Part shown: positions 2,037 to 45,942 of the stretch, in pieces
How positions within the stretch are numbered: the first letter of the stretch is position 1
Layout: each line of letters starts with the position of its first letter
NCBI GenBank assembly: GCA_903875465.1
Contig: CAIQWB010000014.1
Span: 1-45,942, forward strand
Direction of reading: 5' to 3'
Source of the DNA: an uncultured Verrucomicrobia subdivision 3 bacterium
GTDB lineage: Bacteria > Verrucomicrobiota > Verrucomicrobiia > Limisphaerales > UBA11358
Length of the DNA stretch: 45,942 nt
Notes under the pieces: generated by a model
Told to the model about the DNA's origin: nothing
What the model saw: only the letters and a program-made list of their open reading frames with translations
Database searches by the model: none
Program-made: the position numbers and the translations under genes

Positions 2037-4031
2037 TTACTTCGCCTTTAATTCCAGAACGGTGATGGAGTGCGGCGCAAAAGTGTGGGCGAAGCTGCTA
2101 CTCACCCCCGCCCGTTTGGTAGTGACGGGCACGAGGTGGACGGGATCGTTGATGGAATTGGTTTCCTCGGGGTCGCCGGCGAGCGTAACCACCGTGGCTT
2201 TGCCAGCAATGCTGGCGACGCCGTTCAGAGTGAGGTACACGATCTGGGGCTGGGCGGTGATGTTGACGACTTTCACGTAGATGAGACCCTTGGCGGTGTC
2301 GCGGGTGACGGAGTAATCCAGCGGGGCCAGCTCCCCGGCGGGCAGGCCGGTGAGGGCGGCTTTCAGAACGGCATCGCCATGGTAGCGGCTGAAGAGTTGG
2401 ATGGCATAATAGCTGGGAGAGCCGAAGCTGTGGAGGGCATCGTAGCCAATGAGGTTGGGACGCCACTGGCGGCCGCCGGGATTGACGTTCACCAGCATGG
2501 GGGCGTAGCAGTTCATGACAATGATGTCGGCATTGCGTTCCATGGCGGCCATCCAGGCGGCATCGCCCAGGGCGGAGCGCATGGCCGGGGTGGGCGGCAG
2601 TTTGCCGGAGGCTCTGTCCCACGGCACGATTTTCTCGTAGGCGGCCCATTCACCGACGAAAATTTTGGGGCCTTTGCGATCATACTTCTCAAAGCGCGTG
2701 GGGCCGTCCTGCTCAAAATCGCGGGCGGAGCGGTAGTAATGTTCATCCACCACATCCGGGATGCGGCTGTGCACACGCTTCGCTTCCGGCTGCTCATTCC
2801 CCACGGTGGAGATAAGCTGGAGCCGGGGATATTTCGCCTTGATGGCGTCGTAAAACTGGGTGAACCGGCCATCGTAGCTGCCGGAGGGATCGAACCAGTC
2901 TTCATTGCCAATTTCCACGTAGGTGAGGGGGAAGGGTTGGGGATGGCCATCGGCCGCGCGGCGGGCACCCCAAGTGGTGGTGGTGTCGCCGGTCACGTAT
3001 TCGATTTCATCCAGCGCATCCTGCACATAAGGCTGCAAGGCCGGGCCGGCCGGGATCATTTCGGATTTCGGCGGGAGGCTGTAGCCGGCGAAAACCGCGA
3101 GCACCGGCTGGGCGTGCAAATCCTCGGCCCATTCGAGAAATTCCAGTAGGCCGAGGCCATCAGTGGCGCGGTACCCCCAGCATCCCGGATGGCCGGGACG
3201 GGTGACGAGATCGCCCAGGGTGGTCTTCCACGGGAAGCGGTTGACAATGGCGTCGCCCTCCAGGAAGTTGCCGCCGGGGCAGCGCAGGAAGGTGGGCTGC
3301 ATGTCATCGAGCTTCTGCATGAGATCGATGCGGTTCCCATTCGGACGATGATGCCAGGTGGGCGGGAACAGGGAGACCAGATTGAACCAAACGGTGCCGG
3401 GCTGGTTGACGCGCAGCACGAAGCGGGCTTTATCCGTGGGCATCAGGCCGCCGGTTTTCAGGGTGACGGTATATTTCTGCCATTCGCTGGTGAGTGCCTT
3501 GACGCGGGCTTGCGCATAAACAGTCGCGCCCTCGTTGCTCTCGATGGCCACGGTGACCTGCTCGGGCGCGCCGGGGGCGGCCTTGGCGTAAAAGGAGGCG
3601 GTGTAATGCGTGTGGGCAAGCACCGGAATGCCCCAGTAACCATCATTGGCCACGCCGGGCCGGGCCTGGTCGCTGGCGGCAGTGACGTCCAGGCGCAGGC
3701 AGGGTAAGAGATTGGTGTTGAGGGGATTGGCCTGGTCCAGGGCGATGGTGGCGGACGCCCCGGGGGCGGTAACGACGGACCAGTGCACGGGCTGGGTGGA
3801 GTCGTTTTTGAAAACCCGGTTCTGAACCAGTTCGCCATACAGCCCGCCATCGTAGGAATGGTTGATTTCCTCGGTCATCATGCCGTACATCAACGGGCTG
3901 ATGTGCGCGACGGTTTGGCTGGCATCAATCGCCAGGGTCGGCACGTCTTCCCCTGCCCCACGGGTCACGAGGGGGGCAAGTCCGAGACTAAGCAGTGCGG
4001 CCAGGGCGCAAAAATGGTTGAGACGTTTCAT
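2037..4031 (-). CDS. Secreted alpha-L-arabinofuranosidase, GH51 type
   Basis: The predicted protein has 664 residues and should release terminal arabinose from arabinan or arabinoxylan. I chose the ATG at 4031 because it is followed directly by a signal peptide (MKRLNHF, a hydrophobic run, then VTRGAG). A longer frame upstream adds only Pro-rich sequence. After an N-terminal strand with the family block SPLMYGMMTEEINHSYDGG comes a jelly-roll carbohydrate-binding region (about 95-230). A TIM-barrel follows with the acid/base glutamate in EIGNEDWF (E377) and the nucleophile in FVGEWAAYE (E461). A C-terminal beta domain closes the protein. It probably acts in the periplasm or at the cell surface. 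It lies 118 bp downstream of moaA on the same strand, but a 14-bp palindrome in the gap suggests separate control. The family assignment is firm; the exact substrate is not. Confidence 0.93.
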   Translation of the reverse strand: MKRLNHFCALAALLSLGLAPLVTRGAGEDVPTLAIDASQTVAHISPLMYGMMTEEINHSYDGGLYGELVQNRVFKNDSTQPVHWSVVTAPGASATIALDQANPLNTNLLPCLRLDVTAASDQARPGVANDGYWGIPVLAHTHYTASFYAKAAPGAPEQVTVAIESNEGATVYAQARVKALTSEWQKYTVTLKTGGLMPTDKARFVLRVNQPGTVWFNLVSLFPPTWHHRPNGNRIDLMQKLDDMQPTFLRCPGGNFLEGDAIVNRFPWKTTLGDLVTRPGHPGCWGYRATDGLGLLEFLEWAEDLHAQPVLAVFAGYSLPPKSEMIPAGPALQPYVQDALDEIEYVTGDTTTTWGARRAADGHPQPFPLTYVEIGNEDWFDPSGSYDGRFTQFYDAIKAKYPRLQLISTVGNEQPEAKRVHSRIPDVVDEHYYRSARDFEQDGPTRFEKYDRKGPKIFVGEWAAYEKIVPWDRASGKLPPTPAMRSALGDAAWMAAMERNADIIVMNCYAPMLVNVNPGGRQWRPNLIGYDALHSFGSPSYYAIQLFSRYHGDAVLKAALTGLPAGELAPLDYSVTRDTAKGLIYVKVVNITAQPQIVYLTLNGVASIAGKATVVTLAGDPEETNSINDPVHLVPVTTKRAGVSSSFAHTFAPHSITVLELKAK

Positions 4032-4149: not shown

Positions 4150-5121
4150 CTAGCCACCAATGGCAGTCATCACCCGGTGTGGCTGGTAGTTGTCGCGGAA
4201 GAGGTGTTCGGCGGGCTTGACGGTGAGGGTTTGCCGGAACAAGGCCGCCAGGGCGGCGGGATTGATTCGCGGGCGCAGGGCGGGAATTAGATCGGTCTCC
4301 AAATGATTGCCGAGGCAGGGACGCAATTTGCCATCACAGGTCAGCCGCATTTTGTTGCAACGCTCGCAGAAATGGAGGTCGCTGAGGGCACCGATCAGCC
4401 CCACGGTCACCCGGCGCTGTTTGAGCCGGTAATACTTGGCGGGCCCGAAGCCAAAGGCATCGGGCAGCGGCTCCAGTTCGTCCTCCTGCTGCAAGCGGTG
4501 ATACAATTCCGTGACGGGGTAAAAATTCTTTTCGCTCAGCATTTCCGTGAGGCTCACGGGCATGAGTTCAATGAAGCGAATCACGATGTCGTGCTCGGCG
4601 GCGAAATCCAGCAGGCGGAAGATTTCGCCATCGTTGCGCCCGCGCATGAGCACGGTATTTAATTTCACGGACTCGAACCCAAGTTCCTTCACCCGCCGGA
4701 TCCCGGCCAGCACCGGGCCCACCTCGCCCTGGGTGATGGCGCGGTAAATCGCGGGGTCCAGGGCATCCAGACTGATATTGACGCGGCGCAGACCGGCGGC
4801 GAAGAGCGGAGCGGCCAGCTCGGGGAGGCGGGTGCCGTTGGTGGTGAGCAGGACCGATTCCACCCCGGGCATCGCCACCAGGTCGCGGATAAACTCCACC
4901 ACGCCCGGCCGGATCAACGGCTCGCCACCGGTGACCCGGAACCGTTTGAAGCCCAATTGGGTCGCCGCGCGAACCACCGCGAGGAATTCGTCATAGGCGA
5001 GCACGCTGCCGCGCGGGAGCCAGTCGTGGTAATTTTCGGGCAGGCAGTACAGGCACCGCTCATTGCAGCGGTCGGTGATCGAAATTCGCAGGTAATCCAC
5101 CGTGCGCCCAAAGGAATCCAT
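4150..5121 (-). CDS. moaA: GTP 3',8-cyclase MoaA
   Basis: A radical SAM enzyme that, with MoaC, converts GTP to cyclic pyranopterin monophosphate in molybdenum cofactor synthesis. The predicted 323 residues match the family length. The N-terminal cluster motif CNERCLYC supplies C19, C23 and C26. The second 4Fe-4S site near the C terminus has C252, C255 and C269 (CX2C followed by X13C). The TGGEPL motif of radical SAM proteins is present. The protein ends in IGG, the GG tail typical of MoaA and needed for activity. The MOSC gene lies upstream on the same strand, which fits a shared cofactor theme. moaC, moaE and mogA are not in the window, so the rest of the pathway must be elsewhere. The ATG start (MDSFGRTVDYLRIS) matches the family. 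Confidence 0.97.
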   Translation of the reverse strand: MDSFGRTVDYLRISITDRCNERCLYCLPENYHDWLPRGSVLAYDEFLAVVRAATQLGFKRFRVTGGEPLIRPGVVEFIRDLVAMPGVESVLLTTNGTRLPELAAPLFAAGLRRVNISLDALDPAIYRAITQGEVGPVLAGIRRVKELGFESVKLNTVLMRGRNDGEIFRLLDFAAEHDIVIRFIELMPVSLTEMLSEKNFYPVTELYHRLQQEDELEPLPDAFGFGPAKYYRLKQRRVTVGLIGALSDLHFCERCNKMRLTCDGKLRPCLGNHLETDLIPALRPRINPAALAALFRQTLTVKPAEHLFRDNYQPHRVMTAIGG

Positions 5122-14030: not shown

Positions 14031-15131
14031 ATGACAAGGTTCATCGTCACCGGGTTGTCGCTGATTGTTTCACTGATGACTACAATGATGTTATCCGCGG
14101 CCCCCGCTGAGCGCCTGGACGCGCTCCGGGCCGAAAAATTCGCGCGCCTGGCCCTCGCCGGCATTGATCGTGAATACCCTAACAAACCGAGCGAAACCTT
14201 GACCGGCCCCCAGGACCTGGTGCCGCCGCGCACCGTGCATCCGGCGTTCTTTGGCTGTTTCGACTGGCATTCCGCCGTGCATGGCCATTGGATGCTCGTG
14301 CGCTTGCTGCGGGAACACCCCGATCTGGCCAGCGCCGCCGAAATCCGCGCCCGCCTCGCGGCCCACCTCACCGCCACCAACCTCGCCATCGAGGCGGCTT
14401 ACTACACCCCCAAGGACAACCTCAATTACGAGCGCATGTACGGCTGGGCCTGGGCCCTGCGCCTGGCGGCGGAACTGCACGCCTGGCATGATCCCGACGC
14501 GCGGCAATGGGCGGCCAATGTTGCCCCGCTGGAACAAAAATTGGTGGCCCTCACCGAAAGTTATCTCCCCCGGCTGACGTATCCCATTCGTACCGGCGTG
14601 CATCCGGACACCGCCTTCGCCCTCGCCCAAATGCTCGATTACGCCCGCACCGTGCATAATCCCACCCTGGAACAATTGGTGGTGGACCGTGCCAGAATAT
14701 ATTTTCTAAACGACCAGGCTTATCCCGCCAGCTACGAACCCTCCGGCGAGGATTTCCTGTCCCCGGGTCTGGACGTGGCTGACCTCATGCGGCGGGTGCT
14801 GCCGCCGGCGGAATTTTCCGTATGGCTGGACGCCTACCTGCCCGGACTGCGCGCCGGGCACCTGGGTGCCTGGTCCACGGCGGCGGAAGTGAGCGACCTC
14901 AGCGATGGCCGCCTCATCCACCTGGTCGGCTTGAATCTCAGCCGGGCCTGGACCCTCCACGGCGTGGCCTCCGCCCTCCCGACCTCGGACCCGCGACGTG
15001 GCGTTTTGGCAGCCGCTGAAAACACGCACGCCGCAGCCGGACTAAAATACGTCTTCAGCGGCCACTACGAGGGCGATCACTGGCTGGCCACCTTCGCCGT
15101 ATATTATCTATCCCAAACCGGGGTGAAATAA
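14031..15131 (+). CDS. DUF2891 family secreted protein
   Basis: The predicted protein has 366 residues with an N-terminal hydrophobic segment (ITGLSLIV-like, about 4-22, ending SAAPAE). The family is marked by HPAFFGCFDWHSAVHGHWML (about 63-82), NYERMYGWAWALRLAAEL, YEPSGEDFLSPGLDVADLM and HYEGDHWLATFAVYYL. The many conserved His, Trp and acidic residues in a mostly helical chain suggest an alpha/alpha-barrel, perhaps an enzyme acting on sugars, but no activity is known to me. It sits 11 bp downstream of ada and is probably co-transcribed. The stop codon TAA (15129-15131) overlaps the first base of the long-hairpin repeat, so the element may have supplied or altered the end of the gene. Confidence 0.9.
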   Translation: MTRFIVTGLSLIVSLMTTMMLSAAPAERLDALRAEKFARLALAGIDREYPNKPSETLTGPQDLVPPRTVHPAFFGCFDWHSAVHGHWMLVRLLREHPDLASAAEIRARLAAHLTATNLAIEAAYYTPKDNLNYERMYGWAWALRLAAELHAWHDPDARQWAANVAPLEQKLVALTESYLPRLTYPIRTGVHPDTAFALAQMLDYARTVHNPTLEQLVVDRARIYFLNDQAYPASYEPSGEDFLSPGLDVADLMRRVLPPAEFSVWLDAYLPGLRAGHLGAWSTAAEVSDLSDGRLIHLVGLNLSRAWTLHGVASALPTSDPRRGVLAAAENTHAAAGLKYVFSGHYEGDHWLATFAVYYLSQTGVK

Positions 15132-15366
15132 ACCCGAACTCCGAAAGTAAAATGGCTGGGATGTGTCCAGATGTTGGAGCAAAAACACTTTGGAAAAATC
15201 GCCGGCATACCCGCAGTGGTCTGGTGAGACTGCCTCCGCGCGCAGCGCGCAGCGCGCATCGTCAAATGGGCAACTGCTTGGCAGCGGCTTGGGAAGCCAA
15301 TGCTCCAAAGCATTTATGCCCCAGAGATGGATGCCGACCGGCCGTTTTAATTTCGGAGTTTGGGTT
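15131..15366. mobile_element. MITE-like long-hairpin element, copy A
   Basis: 236 bp bounded by imperfect terminal inverted repeats: AACCCGAACTCCGAAAG at the left, and the complement of TTTCGGAGTTTGGGTT at the right. The inverted symmetry continues inward for about 70 bases on each side with mismatches (for instance CTTTGGA at left against TCCAAAG at right). The DNA or RNA could therefore fold into one long hairpin. The middle carries a GCGCGCAGCGCG run and smaller stems (GGCTT/AAGCC). There is no ORF for a transposase, so any mobility would need help in trans. The first base is also the last base of the DUF2891 stop codon. Copies B (23396-23565) and C (38384-38609) share both ends. Confidence 0.8.
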
Positions 15367-15434
15367 AAATGAGGGCACCGCCTCGTTCGCTGCTTGGAGT
15401 TTGGATTTTCCCTTAAGTTTGAAGTTTTCCCCCA

Positions 15435-23368: not shown

Positions 23369-23395
23369 CCCCGCCTTCGCCCACTAAAAATTAAT

Positions 23396-23565
23396 TTAAC
23401 CCGAACTCCGAAAGTAAAATGGCTGGGATGCGTCAAGATATTGGAGCAGAAACGCTTTGGTAAAATCGCCGCATACCCGCAGAGGTCTGGTAAGATTTTT
23501 CCAAACCGTTTATGCCCAAAAGATTGATGCCGACCGGCCGTTTTAATTTCGGAGTTCGGGTTTAA
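23396..23565. mobile_element. MITE-like long-hairpin element, copy B (short form)
   Basis: About 168 bp with the same terminal inverted repeats as copies A and C (TTAACCCGAACTCCGAAAG at the left and the matching complement at the right). It lacks the roughly 70 bp that hold the GC-rich middle in the other copies. The arms then meet over a short loop: AAAATC (23463-23468) pairs with GATTTT, and CTTTGG with CCAAA beside it. The whole copy is therefore one long imperfect hairpin with arms of about 65 bases. It lies 28 bp after the phosphatase stop. Confidence 0.78.
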
Positions 23566-23952: not shown

Positions 23953-27021
<3,069 letters not shown>

Positions 27022-38306: not shown

Positions 38307-38383
38307 ATGTAGTTTTGCTTGATTGATTGATTGTTGCCTGCCCCTCTCCCTGGCCTCGGTCACCGCCGCTGCCCTCGTTTTAT

Positions 38384-38609
38384 CCCGAACTCCGAAATTA
38401 AAATGGCCGGGATGCGTCCAGCTATTGGAGCCGAAACGCTTTGGAAAAATCGCCGCATACCCGCCGCGGTCGGGTAAGACTGCCTCTGCGCGCAGCGCAC
38501 ACCCTTAAATGGGCAACGGATTGGCAGCGGCTTGGGCAGCCAATGTTCCATATCGTTCATGCCCAGGAGCTGGAGGCAGACCGGGCGTTTTAATTCCGGA
38601 GTTCGGGTT
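38384..38609. mobile_element. MITE-like long-hairpin element, copy C
   Basis: 225 bp with the same imperfect terminal inverted repeats as copies A and B, CCCGAACTCCGAAATTAAAATG at left being mirrored at right. It keeps the middle block with GCGCGCAGCGCAC. Inner symmetry is seen between CCAGCTATTGGAG at left and CTGGAGG-type text at right. The right end touches the stop codon of the anti-sigma-like gene (TAA on the minus strand, 38608-38610), just as copy A touches the DUF2891 stop. Relative to its gene this copy is in the opposite orientation to copy A. No transposase is encoded. Confidence 0.8.
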
Positions 38610-39066
38610 AATAAGTTTCAAACCGCACCGGGGTTACCTCCACCCGCGGACTGCTCGTTTCAATTTCCACGCCGCGAACTTTGTCGCGCACCACCATCTG
38701 ATCCCGCAATTGCCGGCACCGGAAGCGCACCGGCTCGCCGCCAGGCAGTTGTGCCACCACCTCATAGGACGAAACCAGTTCCTCATTCACTTGCACATCA
38801 TCCGGCTTCCATCCCGCCGCCGCCGCCACCGGGGTGGTAAATTTCGCCAGGCCCAGGCTGAGTCCCGCCACCACCACGGCCATTCCCAACGCTGGAGCCA
38901 GCCAGCGCCAGTCCCACCCGCCGCGCACGACTGGAAGGGGTCGCGCTGCCGGCTTTGCCGGCTCCGGCCTGGCCGCCCGCAAGCGAGCCATGAATTCCTC
39001 CGGCGGCCGCGCCGGTGTCAGACGCCGTAATTCCGCTTCCCATTGCTGTTCGTCTAATTCGTTCAT
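38608..39066 (-). CDS. Anti-sigma factor-like membrane protein
   Basis: The predicted protein has 152 residues. A cytoplasmic N-terminal part (1-50, MNELDEQQWEAELRRLTPARPP) could bind the sigma factor. One transmembrane helix follows (54-74, WLAPALGMAVVVAGLSLGLA). A periplasmic tail (75-152) ends VTPVRFETY. No zinc-binding HxxxCxxC motif is seen, so it is not a classical ZAS anti-sigma factor. The role is assigned by position: its start overlaps the sigma factor stop by 4 bp, the usual coupling for such pairs. The stop codon abuts repeat copy C, so the last residues or the 3' end may have been altered by the insertion. Confidence 0.75.
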   Translation of the reverse strand: MNELDEQQWEAELRRLTPARPPEEFMARLRAARPEPAKPAARPLPVVRGGWDWRWLAPALGMAVVVAGLSLGLAKFTTPVAAAAGWKPDDVQVNEELVSSYEVVAQLPGGEPVRFRCRQLRDQMVVRDKVRGVEIETSSPRVEVTPVRFETY

Positions 39067-45413: not shown

Positions 45414-45942
45414 GCCCCGTGAGTCATGGCCCGGCATGGCAACCGGCTTGCCGATATACCATCTTGCGAACCACCGGGCTGCGTTCCCAGGCCGCGCTTG
45501 GCTCCCCGGCAACGACCGCGAAACCAGCTCAAAACCCTGCTCCTGTAGGAGACGACGTGAGGAGTCTCACTTCAATTCCCGGAATGGATCCGCGCCTCGC
45601 CACCTCGACGCCTACTCGCATCCAACCCTCCCTCGCCACCATTACGGATATGCCATCTTGCGAACCGCCGGGCTGCGCTTGGCTCCCCGGCAACGACCTC
45701 AAAACCAGTTCAAAAACCCTGCTCCTGTAGGAGACGACGTGAGGAGTCTCACTTCAAATCTGGGAGTGGATCCGCAACTCGCCACCTCGACTCCTACCCG
45801 CGCCAAACCCACCCTCGCCACCATTACGGATATCCCATCTGGCGAACCACCGTGCTCCGTTCCCTGGCCGCGCTTGGCTCCCCGGCAACGACCTCGAAAC
45901 CAGCTCAAAACCCTGCTCCTGTAGGAGACGACGTGAGGAGTC
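45414..45942. other. Gene-free right end carrying tandem repeats
   Basis: Everything after the permease stop belongs to, or leads into, the tandem array (see next entry). The long open frames through it are shadows; they shift register between units and do not encode a repeated peptide. Confidence 0.6.
45453..45942. repeat. Tandem array of ~190-bp units with a conserved core
   Basis: Three units begin near 45453, 45647 and 45829 with GATATNCCATCTTGCGAACC-like text. Unit 1 is 194 bp. Unit 2 is 182 bp, because 13 bp near TTCCCAGGCCGCG are missing and one base is added. Unit 3 is cut by the window edge. The units differ by scattered substitutions, but the core from CCCTGCTCCTGTAGGAG through ACGACGTGAGGAGTC (about 45535, 45717 and 45911 onward) is identical in all three. 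In the core CTCCT and AGGAG can pair, and GAGAC can pair with GTCTC. The array may continue to the right. Its function is unknown; a structured RNA or a protein-binding array are both possible. Confidence 0.8.

Follow-up and report, generated by a model that had tools for sequence, protein, structure and literature searches.

The window analysed here is the entire 45,942-nt contig C14 of a 5.3-Mb genome in 153 contigs (the source genome, G000) from an uncultured Verrucomicrobia subdivision 3 bacterium. It carries three long hairpins, which had been described in an original prediction, made from the letters of the DNA, as one family with shared ends that lies between genes and represents either a non-autonomous transposon or a class of long structured RNA 3' ends. 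All three copies are present in the window. They are located between genes, as described, with the restriction that copy 1 touches the stop codon of a DUF2891 gene (14031-15131); in a sample of 47 copies from the source genome, a called open reading frame (ORF) extends over four. The copies and their parts are arranged as follows:

15128-15132, no strand: left flanking 5-mer ATAAA of copy 1, an inexact duplication that shares bases with the DUF2891 stop codon
15133-15364, plus strand (the strand of the GCATACCC motif): copy 1, which has the long (225-type) form plus an additional insertion of 7 nt
15204-15228, plus strand: apical motif GGCATACCC..GGTCTGGTGAG of copy 1, from sequence reading with the motif pattern
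15230-15302 (approximate), plus strand: additional GC-rich block responsible for the long form in copy 1, from the alignment
15365-15369, no strand: right flanking 5-mer TTAAA of copy 1, an inexact duplication
23395-23399, no strand: target duplication TTTAA to the left of copy 2, exact
23400-23560, plus strand: copy 2, short (162-type) form, common to other genomes
23471-23494, plus strand: apical motif GCATACCCGCAGAGGTCTGGTAAG of copy 2 (match of core model R1 at 23426-23534, 117 bits)
23561-23565, no strand: target duplication TTTAA to the right of copy 2, exact
38379-38383, no strand: left flanking 5-mer TTTAT of copy 3, an inexact duplication
38384-38607, plus strand: copy 3, long (225-type) form
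38455-38478, plus strand: diverged apical motif GGTCGGGTAAG of copy 3
38480-38545 (approximate), plus strand: extra GC-rich block of the long form in copy 3, from the alignment
38608-38612, no strand: right flanking 5-mer TTAAT of copy 3, an inexact duplication

The limits of the elements were set by the target duplication, inexact in two of the three copies (1 and 3), and yield lengths of 232, 161, and 224 nt; those of copy 1 lie two bases inside the predicted limits on each side. The shared terminal inverted repeats (TIRs) are real, while the end motif proposed for them, AACCCGAACTCCG, takes in two target bases, as the position of the duplication reveals. With up to three mismatches, a 16-mer of the end is found seven times in the window, compared with 0.49 times on average in shuffled sequence; six of these are element ends and the seventh is a stray at 24545 (three mismatches). 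A full-model scan of the window with R1 returned the three copies, one of them on both strands, along with three weak strays (best E 0.034). The proposed inward symmetry agrees with the predicted folds: copy 1 reaches a z of -6.2 against shuffles, and a 162-nt copy from elsewhere in the source genome (L046) folds at -99.6 kcal/mol compared with a shuffled mean of -42.7 (z -14.6).

Other repeats are found close by. Positions 1-160 of the window belong to a second repeat family with the end GGTTCCTCGCTGTTTTCGGTGG; the start of the contig truncates this copy. In four other loci of the source genome (L057, L058, L063, and L014) this repeat adjoins the MITE sequence TCCCAGCC, which is apparently duplicated by 8 bp in L057; the two either spread as one composite or this site is a hot spot. 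At the other end, positions 45490-45942 hold a tandem repeat with a period of 182 and 2.4 copies that runs to the contig end and includes a GGAGACGACGTGAGGAGTCTC stretch.

The expectation that three copies in one contig imply many in the genome proved correct. A longer end pattern matches the source genome at 226 places (reversed control: 0), which, halved, corresponds to about 113 elements, a rough figure given that truncated copies and contig ends interfere; the 13-mer end with at most one mismatch matches at 227 places, compared with 20 for the reversed control. An initial search gave 40 long matches (at least 212 nt) from 40 scored candidates out of 164, the remaining 42 matches being one arm matching the other. 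Several contigs of G000 (C9, C18, C69, and others) start inside an element copy; the assembly is thus probably interrupted by the repeat, which makes copy counts approximate. Among the 47 sampled copies, the long form, with exactly 225 nt, is the commoner one (27 copies), followed by the short form of 161-162 nt (15 copies); according to the alignment, the long form is characterised by an extra GC-rich block of about 63 nt adjoining the loop. The sister genomes G033 and G236 additionally harbor short forms of 78-79 nt without the core. Searches of the full genome and of related genomes thus encountered many copies in several lineages with conserved ends, and the family is confined neither to this contig nor to a single lineage with variable ends.

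The TIR of the source-genome element is CCCGAACTCCGAAATTAAAA, and its consensus shows a perfect 20-nt TIR. The element is flanked by a 5-bp target duplication of the type TTNAA, with left-flank bases T (43), T (46), any, A (46), and A (40) in the 47 copies. Exact flanking 5-mers border 33 of the 47 (mean 9.0 and maximum 16 in 300 shuffles), and the same holds for 20 of 44 copies in G033 and G236 (shuffled mean 4.7, maximum 11), 14 of 36 of a PVC type with ends CCTGAATCCGTGAGAT (0.6 and 3), and 8 of 15 of a Neomarinimicrobiota/Acidobacteria type with ends CCTAAATTGAGCGATT (0.6 and 5). From 2 to 9 bp, no duplication length other than 5 exceeded its shuffled maximum. In this test the limits were taken from the terminal repeat alone, and size limits were preset around known sizes for the source genome and G033/G236. 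Four end types have their length peak at 160-162 nt, and for two of them the search had allowed a wide range of sizes. The description of the hairpins as gene-free stands, since six-frame translations of ten elements, inspected by eye, contained no conserved open frame. A conserved loop acting as a protein C-terminus was considered and discarded, because the frames are unconserved and the loop varies by single bases between elements.

Concerning the enzyme, the transposase with matching terminal repeats that had been suggested as a check was encountered in a sister species and not in the source genome, in which neither PF13701 (the IS1380 type) nor the transposase protein of G010 gave a match; the partner is consequently deduced from sister species. 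In L348 of the sister species G243, TIRs at 1 and 1473 delimit 1473 bp with an IS1380 transposase split over two ORFs; NF033539 is the best match of both (E 2.2e-39 and 1.3e-17), at 135 and 64 bits, which is below the curated 180-bit cut-off in each case; its left duplication is unreadable because the contig starts at the left TIR. End matches in sister genomes also led to a fragment in G010 (L347; NF033539 E 4e-15, PF13701 18 bits). Over 16 nt, the source-genome TIR agrees with IS1380 ends at 15 and 14 positions for two in G243 and at 15 for that in G010, compared with 6-10 for nine other IS1380 ends.

This relationship recurs outside the sister species. PF13701 matches are present in 31 of 49 genomes of the genus (22 above the cut-off) and in 6 of 16 searched genomes that carry the element (5 above the cut-off, the match in G445 lying below it with 27.7 bits). 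In four of these six the element ends resemble those of IS1380, with 16 of 16 nt in G476, 14 in G440, 15 in G445, and 14 in G638, all ends, including those compared with the source-genome TIR above, having been picked by hand and the better element end used in G445 and G638; for the remaining two genomes, G705 and G707, no matching ends were established. G476 contains a 1676-bp IS1380 with ends CCTGAATCCGTGAGAT and the duplication TCAAT next to a resident hairpin element with the same 16 nt. G440, with 75 PF13701 matches, harbors a 163-nt hairpin element (duplication TATAT) whose ends resemble the resident IS1380 as counted above, and a second end type that agrees at 14 of 16 positions with an IS1380 end of another genome, G023, and with none of those shown in G440 itself. 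Other end types fit less well: that of G091/L169 reaches 11 of 16, and the Neomarinimicrobiota/Acidobacteria type matched no IS1380 end (best 8 of 16).

The core model found nothing inside the tested IS1380 loci (32 loci and 5 further ones); core matches in three IS loci of G440 are separate neighbouring elements. Because the examined IS elements are devoid of the core, the hairpin element is no simple deletion derivative of them. Transposases of the PF01609 type were rejected as partners, as 22 loci from four genomes showed no ends of the source-genome type within two mismatches; ends of the G033 type occur there as a pair in L150 alone, about 84 nt apart and beside the gene, not around it. 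Longer TIR-to-TIR stretches in G033 and G236 revealed no recognisable transposase when their ORFs were read. Coreless hairpins of the same end type (L335, L336, L337, L338, L341, L342, L343, and L345) exist in the same genus; an exact 5-bp duplication flanks five of eight measured (163-223 nt), and model R2 detected no core in 12 such loci. The same ends therefore serve several interiors.

Taken together, the elements are short, gene-free, bordered by TIRs and a target duplication, and present in high copy number, and they share their ends with an autonomous-type element (IS1380 L348 in G243, with the fragment L347 in G010), as is characteristic of MITEs; a MITE feature that they lack is an interior derived by deletion from an autonomous element, the core being absent from the tested IS1380 loci. 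As in elements mobilised by IS1380, their duplication is AT-rich and within the range of 4-5 bp, and their ends start with CC. Of the two identities originally offered, exact 5-bp duplications, fixed ends, high copy number, and an IS1380 with the same TIR speak for the non-autonomous transposon. The three hairpins are supported as copies of a MITE, i.e. a non-autonomous DNA transposon, and it is hardly in doubt that this element is moved by an IS1380-type transposase.

The interior of the element recurs in distant lineages. The ~160-nt element carries the apical motif GGCATACCC-n-GGTCTGTYGAG, and R1, for which 23 cores from four genomes of the order were used, detected the core in 7 of the 320 order genomes searched (E 1e-4) and in 17 of the 387 phylum genomes (E 1e-3), the source genome included in both; the weakest phylum matches, near E 1e-3, may be chance. 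Scoring in these scans covered the best 9-12 candidates of each genome, which makes the resulting copy numbers lower bounds. Model R2, built from 27 more diverse cores, found the core in 12 of 387 phylum genomes at E 1e-4. A search of genome contigs for the exact motif returned at least 97 stretches. As about nine chance occurrences are estimated for the whole collection, the motif alone is weak evidence and the R1 match is what counts: at E 0.01, R1 matches 91 of the 97 listed loci, nearly all over most of its 110 positions. The six listed loci that it does not match at this threshold are L180, L217, L224, L241, L246, and L255, and Muiribacterium is left out of the count for this reason. One Candidatus Neomarinimicrobiota MAG accounts for 31 of the 97 listed loci (30 matched by R1) and Acidobacteria MAGs for 15 (13 matched). 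Desulfobia and Mucilaginibacter contribute one listed locus each, which could be misbinned; the ends of the Mucilaginibacter element resemble those of L209 from Verrucomicrobiales. A contig titled Rhodospirillales (L232, CAIXXC010000065.1) is 99.9% identical over 2.7 kb to L008 of the source genome and is likely misbinned. Distant elements combine different CC-type ends with a homologous core. No match was obtained for the exact motif in viral contigs, for element L127 in plasmids, or for element L046 in phages, and a literature search that reached a minority of subscription papers returned no report of the motif or of an IS1380 MITE.

Two loci display local rearrangements. In L092 (G051:C215), from another family of the order, cores at 2959-3066 and 4840-4950 face the same way at a distance of 1.9 kb and have similar flanks, the picture that a local duplication would leave. 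In L116 (G033:C13, ~590-870) a core element is split by an insert of about 300 nt with inverted ends of its own.

The core is predicted to form a hairpin of about 110 nt with conserved bulges and, typically, the apical helix GGCA-U-ACC..GGU-C-UGUC. Individual folds from six lineages end in this helix or close to it in five cases and in a variant in L126; the AT-rich Muiribacterium fold is weak (z -2.7). The compensating changes that had been proposed as a check are evident in an alignment (A3) of 27 hand-chosen sequences from 184 instances in 21 clusters, two of which looked like chance hits; poorly alignable sequences were omitted, the alignment was made by sequence instead of structure, and the structure was derived with RNAalifold. 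A3 contains 57 double-change cells compared with 18.6 after shuffling, spread over 11 of 16 pairs, and 93.2% of its cells are paired compared with 81.7%. For pairing, double changes, and covariation score, none of 500 shuffles was as high; further pair types alone are unexceptional (72 of 500 shuffles). Slid structures pair at 54% or less, a comparison in which the structure is favoured because it was derived from the same alignment. Mean column identity of the core between lineages is 65%, and pairing is preserved by double changes.

Strand polarity was counted within lineages, with the motif giving the orientation and with G-U pairs barred in structure prediction. Stems of 160-162-nt copies contain 190 G-U vs 77 A-C cells, or 92 vs 51 site types (p 7.6e-4). 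Changes of C>T plus A>G affect 112 of 238 sites vs 81 of 238 for the reverse at paired positions (plain binomial for these alone, p 0.03), and 33 of 67 vs 62 of 103 at unpaired positions. The per-site odds of changes that make G-U pairs are 1.72 at paired and 0.64 at unpaired positions, with a composition-corrected interaction p of 0.0075; the uncorrected Fisher value of 2.6e-4 overstates the contrast, since C and A are less frequent than G and T at unpaired sites. Because copies share ancestry, the polarity and shuffle tests both count non-independent events. Polarity is weak in G033/G236 (34 G-U vs 28 A-C site types) and absent from the 225-nt form of the source genome (10 vs 15), as if the inserted block had freed the core from constraint. 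Covariation together with the excess of G-U over A-C indicates selection on one strand of the hairpin, and selection of the core as a single strand is somewhat favoured on these grounds. That the selected strand is RNA is a tentative reading of sequence patterns. Skipping-rope RNA is a conceivable relative. In eight loci, Rfam at E up to 1 matched only a tRNA, and the window had no match at gathering score.

The overall model that we consider probable combines a non-autonomous transposon, mobilised by IS1380 in trans, with a core selected as a single strand. In this model, the CCCGAACTCCGAAATT ends are recognised by an IS1380-family DDE transposase acting in trans, which cuts the element out and places it in a TTNAA site, thereby duplicating 5 bp. 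Such an enzyme would have moved the copies of the source genome, where it may by now be absent, unassembled, or too diverged to be found. The element occurs with several end types, some of which match IS1380 lineages, and the interior, no remnant of the examined IS elements, is retained in similar elements of about 160 nt across distant bacteria under these different ends. The core would work as a single strand, most likely as a transcribed RNA and less likely as a single-stranded DNA hairpin, and putatively binds, e.g., the transposase or a host protein that itself binds RNA or DNA. It would serve the spread of the element itself, a view based on its mixed orientation relative to genes: among copies between co-directional genes (ORFs of at least 100 aa, four sets, window copies excluded), 27 are in sense and 30 in antisense. 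An antisense bias in the PVC set (0 vs 13) vanished under a plain ORF criterion (9 vs 8).

This mixed orientation also makes a gene-linked role improbable and speaks against the second identity originally offered, namely that the hairpins are structured RNA 3' ends or regulators of neighbouring genes and not primarily mobile. That reading could draw on the very stable fold and on the position of source-genome copies: 48 gene 3' ends face a copy at medians of 86 and 125 nt, and 32 gene 5' ends at the larger medians of 136 and 308 nt, a difference that the loss of harmful insertions would lead one to expect. The reading is opposed by the target duplications and the transposon ends, and also by the lack of a terminator-like site in one scanned copy and of an Rfam match in the window and the eight loci named above, so that it is scarcely credible. 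More weight is due to an ordinary MITE with a functionless interior, whose conservation would reflect horizontal transfer and whose palindrome would persist by chance and copy turnover. The patchy distribution in order and phylum fits this alternative, as do the nearly balanced G-U and A-C counts in G033/G236, the non-polar 225-nt form, and the fact that several records are MAGs and may be misbinned. It accounts poorly for a widely divergent core sequence whose pairing is kept by double changes, for a common length peak under four end types, and for a substitution asymmetry confined to paired positions, and we regard it as unlikely.

The remaining alternatives concern the nature of the strand. 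DNA, too, accommodates G-T more readily than A-C; the polarity therefore fails to distinguish RNA from DNA and is compatible with a strand-specific hairpin that is processed as single-stranded DNA during replication or transposition. A scan of one copy, which showed no promoter beyond one promoter-like match across the left end, also suits a DNA hairpin. Staggered-cut 5-bp duplications, on the other hand, are the mark of a DDE transposase acting on double strands, for which a single-strand hairpin is unnecessary, and the DNA-hairpin explanation appears rather improbable, slightly more so than the ordinary MITE. A bolder version of the RNA reading would see in the elements a mobile structured-RNA family, i.e. 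a lineage of ~160-nt RNA hairpins that re-acquires the TIRs of whichever IS1380 transposases are available and whose motif binds the transposase or a host factor; judged from sequence comparison, this is conceivable though doubtful. If true, such a family would correspond in bacteria to the non-autonomous transposons that encode RNAs, except that a cut-and-paste DNA transposase would move it.

Bacterial MITEs are usually viewed as deletion remnants with a narrow host range. One interior of near-constant length, shared by distant lineages under different ends and with indications that its fold is under selection, is unexpected for a specialist. It raises the questions of whether a MITE depends on, or supplies, a structured nucleic acid and by what means a non-autonomous element outlives its transposase, and IS1380 is the enzyme family identified for testing them.

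Among known palindromic repeats, those of the REP/RAYT and IS200/IS605 type are intergenic, are recognised as hairpins, and are not known to make a target duplication; the present element differs from REP/RAYT or IS605-type palindromes in duplicating 5 bp. Tn3-derived TIMEs have a repeat of about 38 bp starting with GGGG, whereas the hairpin element ends read CCC/CCT. The closest resemblance is to the IS1380 family (ISEcp1, IS1247; NF033539, PF13701), with a TIR agreement of 15 of 16 to the sister-species member and a 5-bp AT-rich duplication, in contrast to which the element measures 160-230 nt instead of ~1.5-1.7 kb, lacks a transposase gene, and has an interior absent from the tested IS1380 elements. 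IS1247 is reported with 1672 bp, IR 16/13, and DR 5 (PMC3281130), and ISEcp1 is described as making 5-bp duplications (PMC2887853). With the bacterial MITEs Correia/NEMIS, ERIC, MITEPye1, and TIMEs the element shares small size, lack of genes, TIRs, and target duplication. Such MITEs are described as able to fold as a long hairpin at the RNA level, with IS1182 as the element linked to MITEPye1 and Tn3 as that linked to TIMEs (PMC10969869, PMC11578231, PMC4133298); compared with them as described in these passages, the present element differs in its IS1380 partner and in one interior that spans distant lineages with different ends. The MITE-like repeats bcr1-bcr3 of the Bacillus cereus group are comparable by description: about half of the repeat copies are reported as expressed, a TTTAT motif is linked to mobility, and bcr1 is described as restricted to one species group, unlike the element described here (PMC3446304, PMC6542083).
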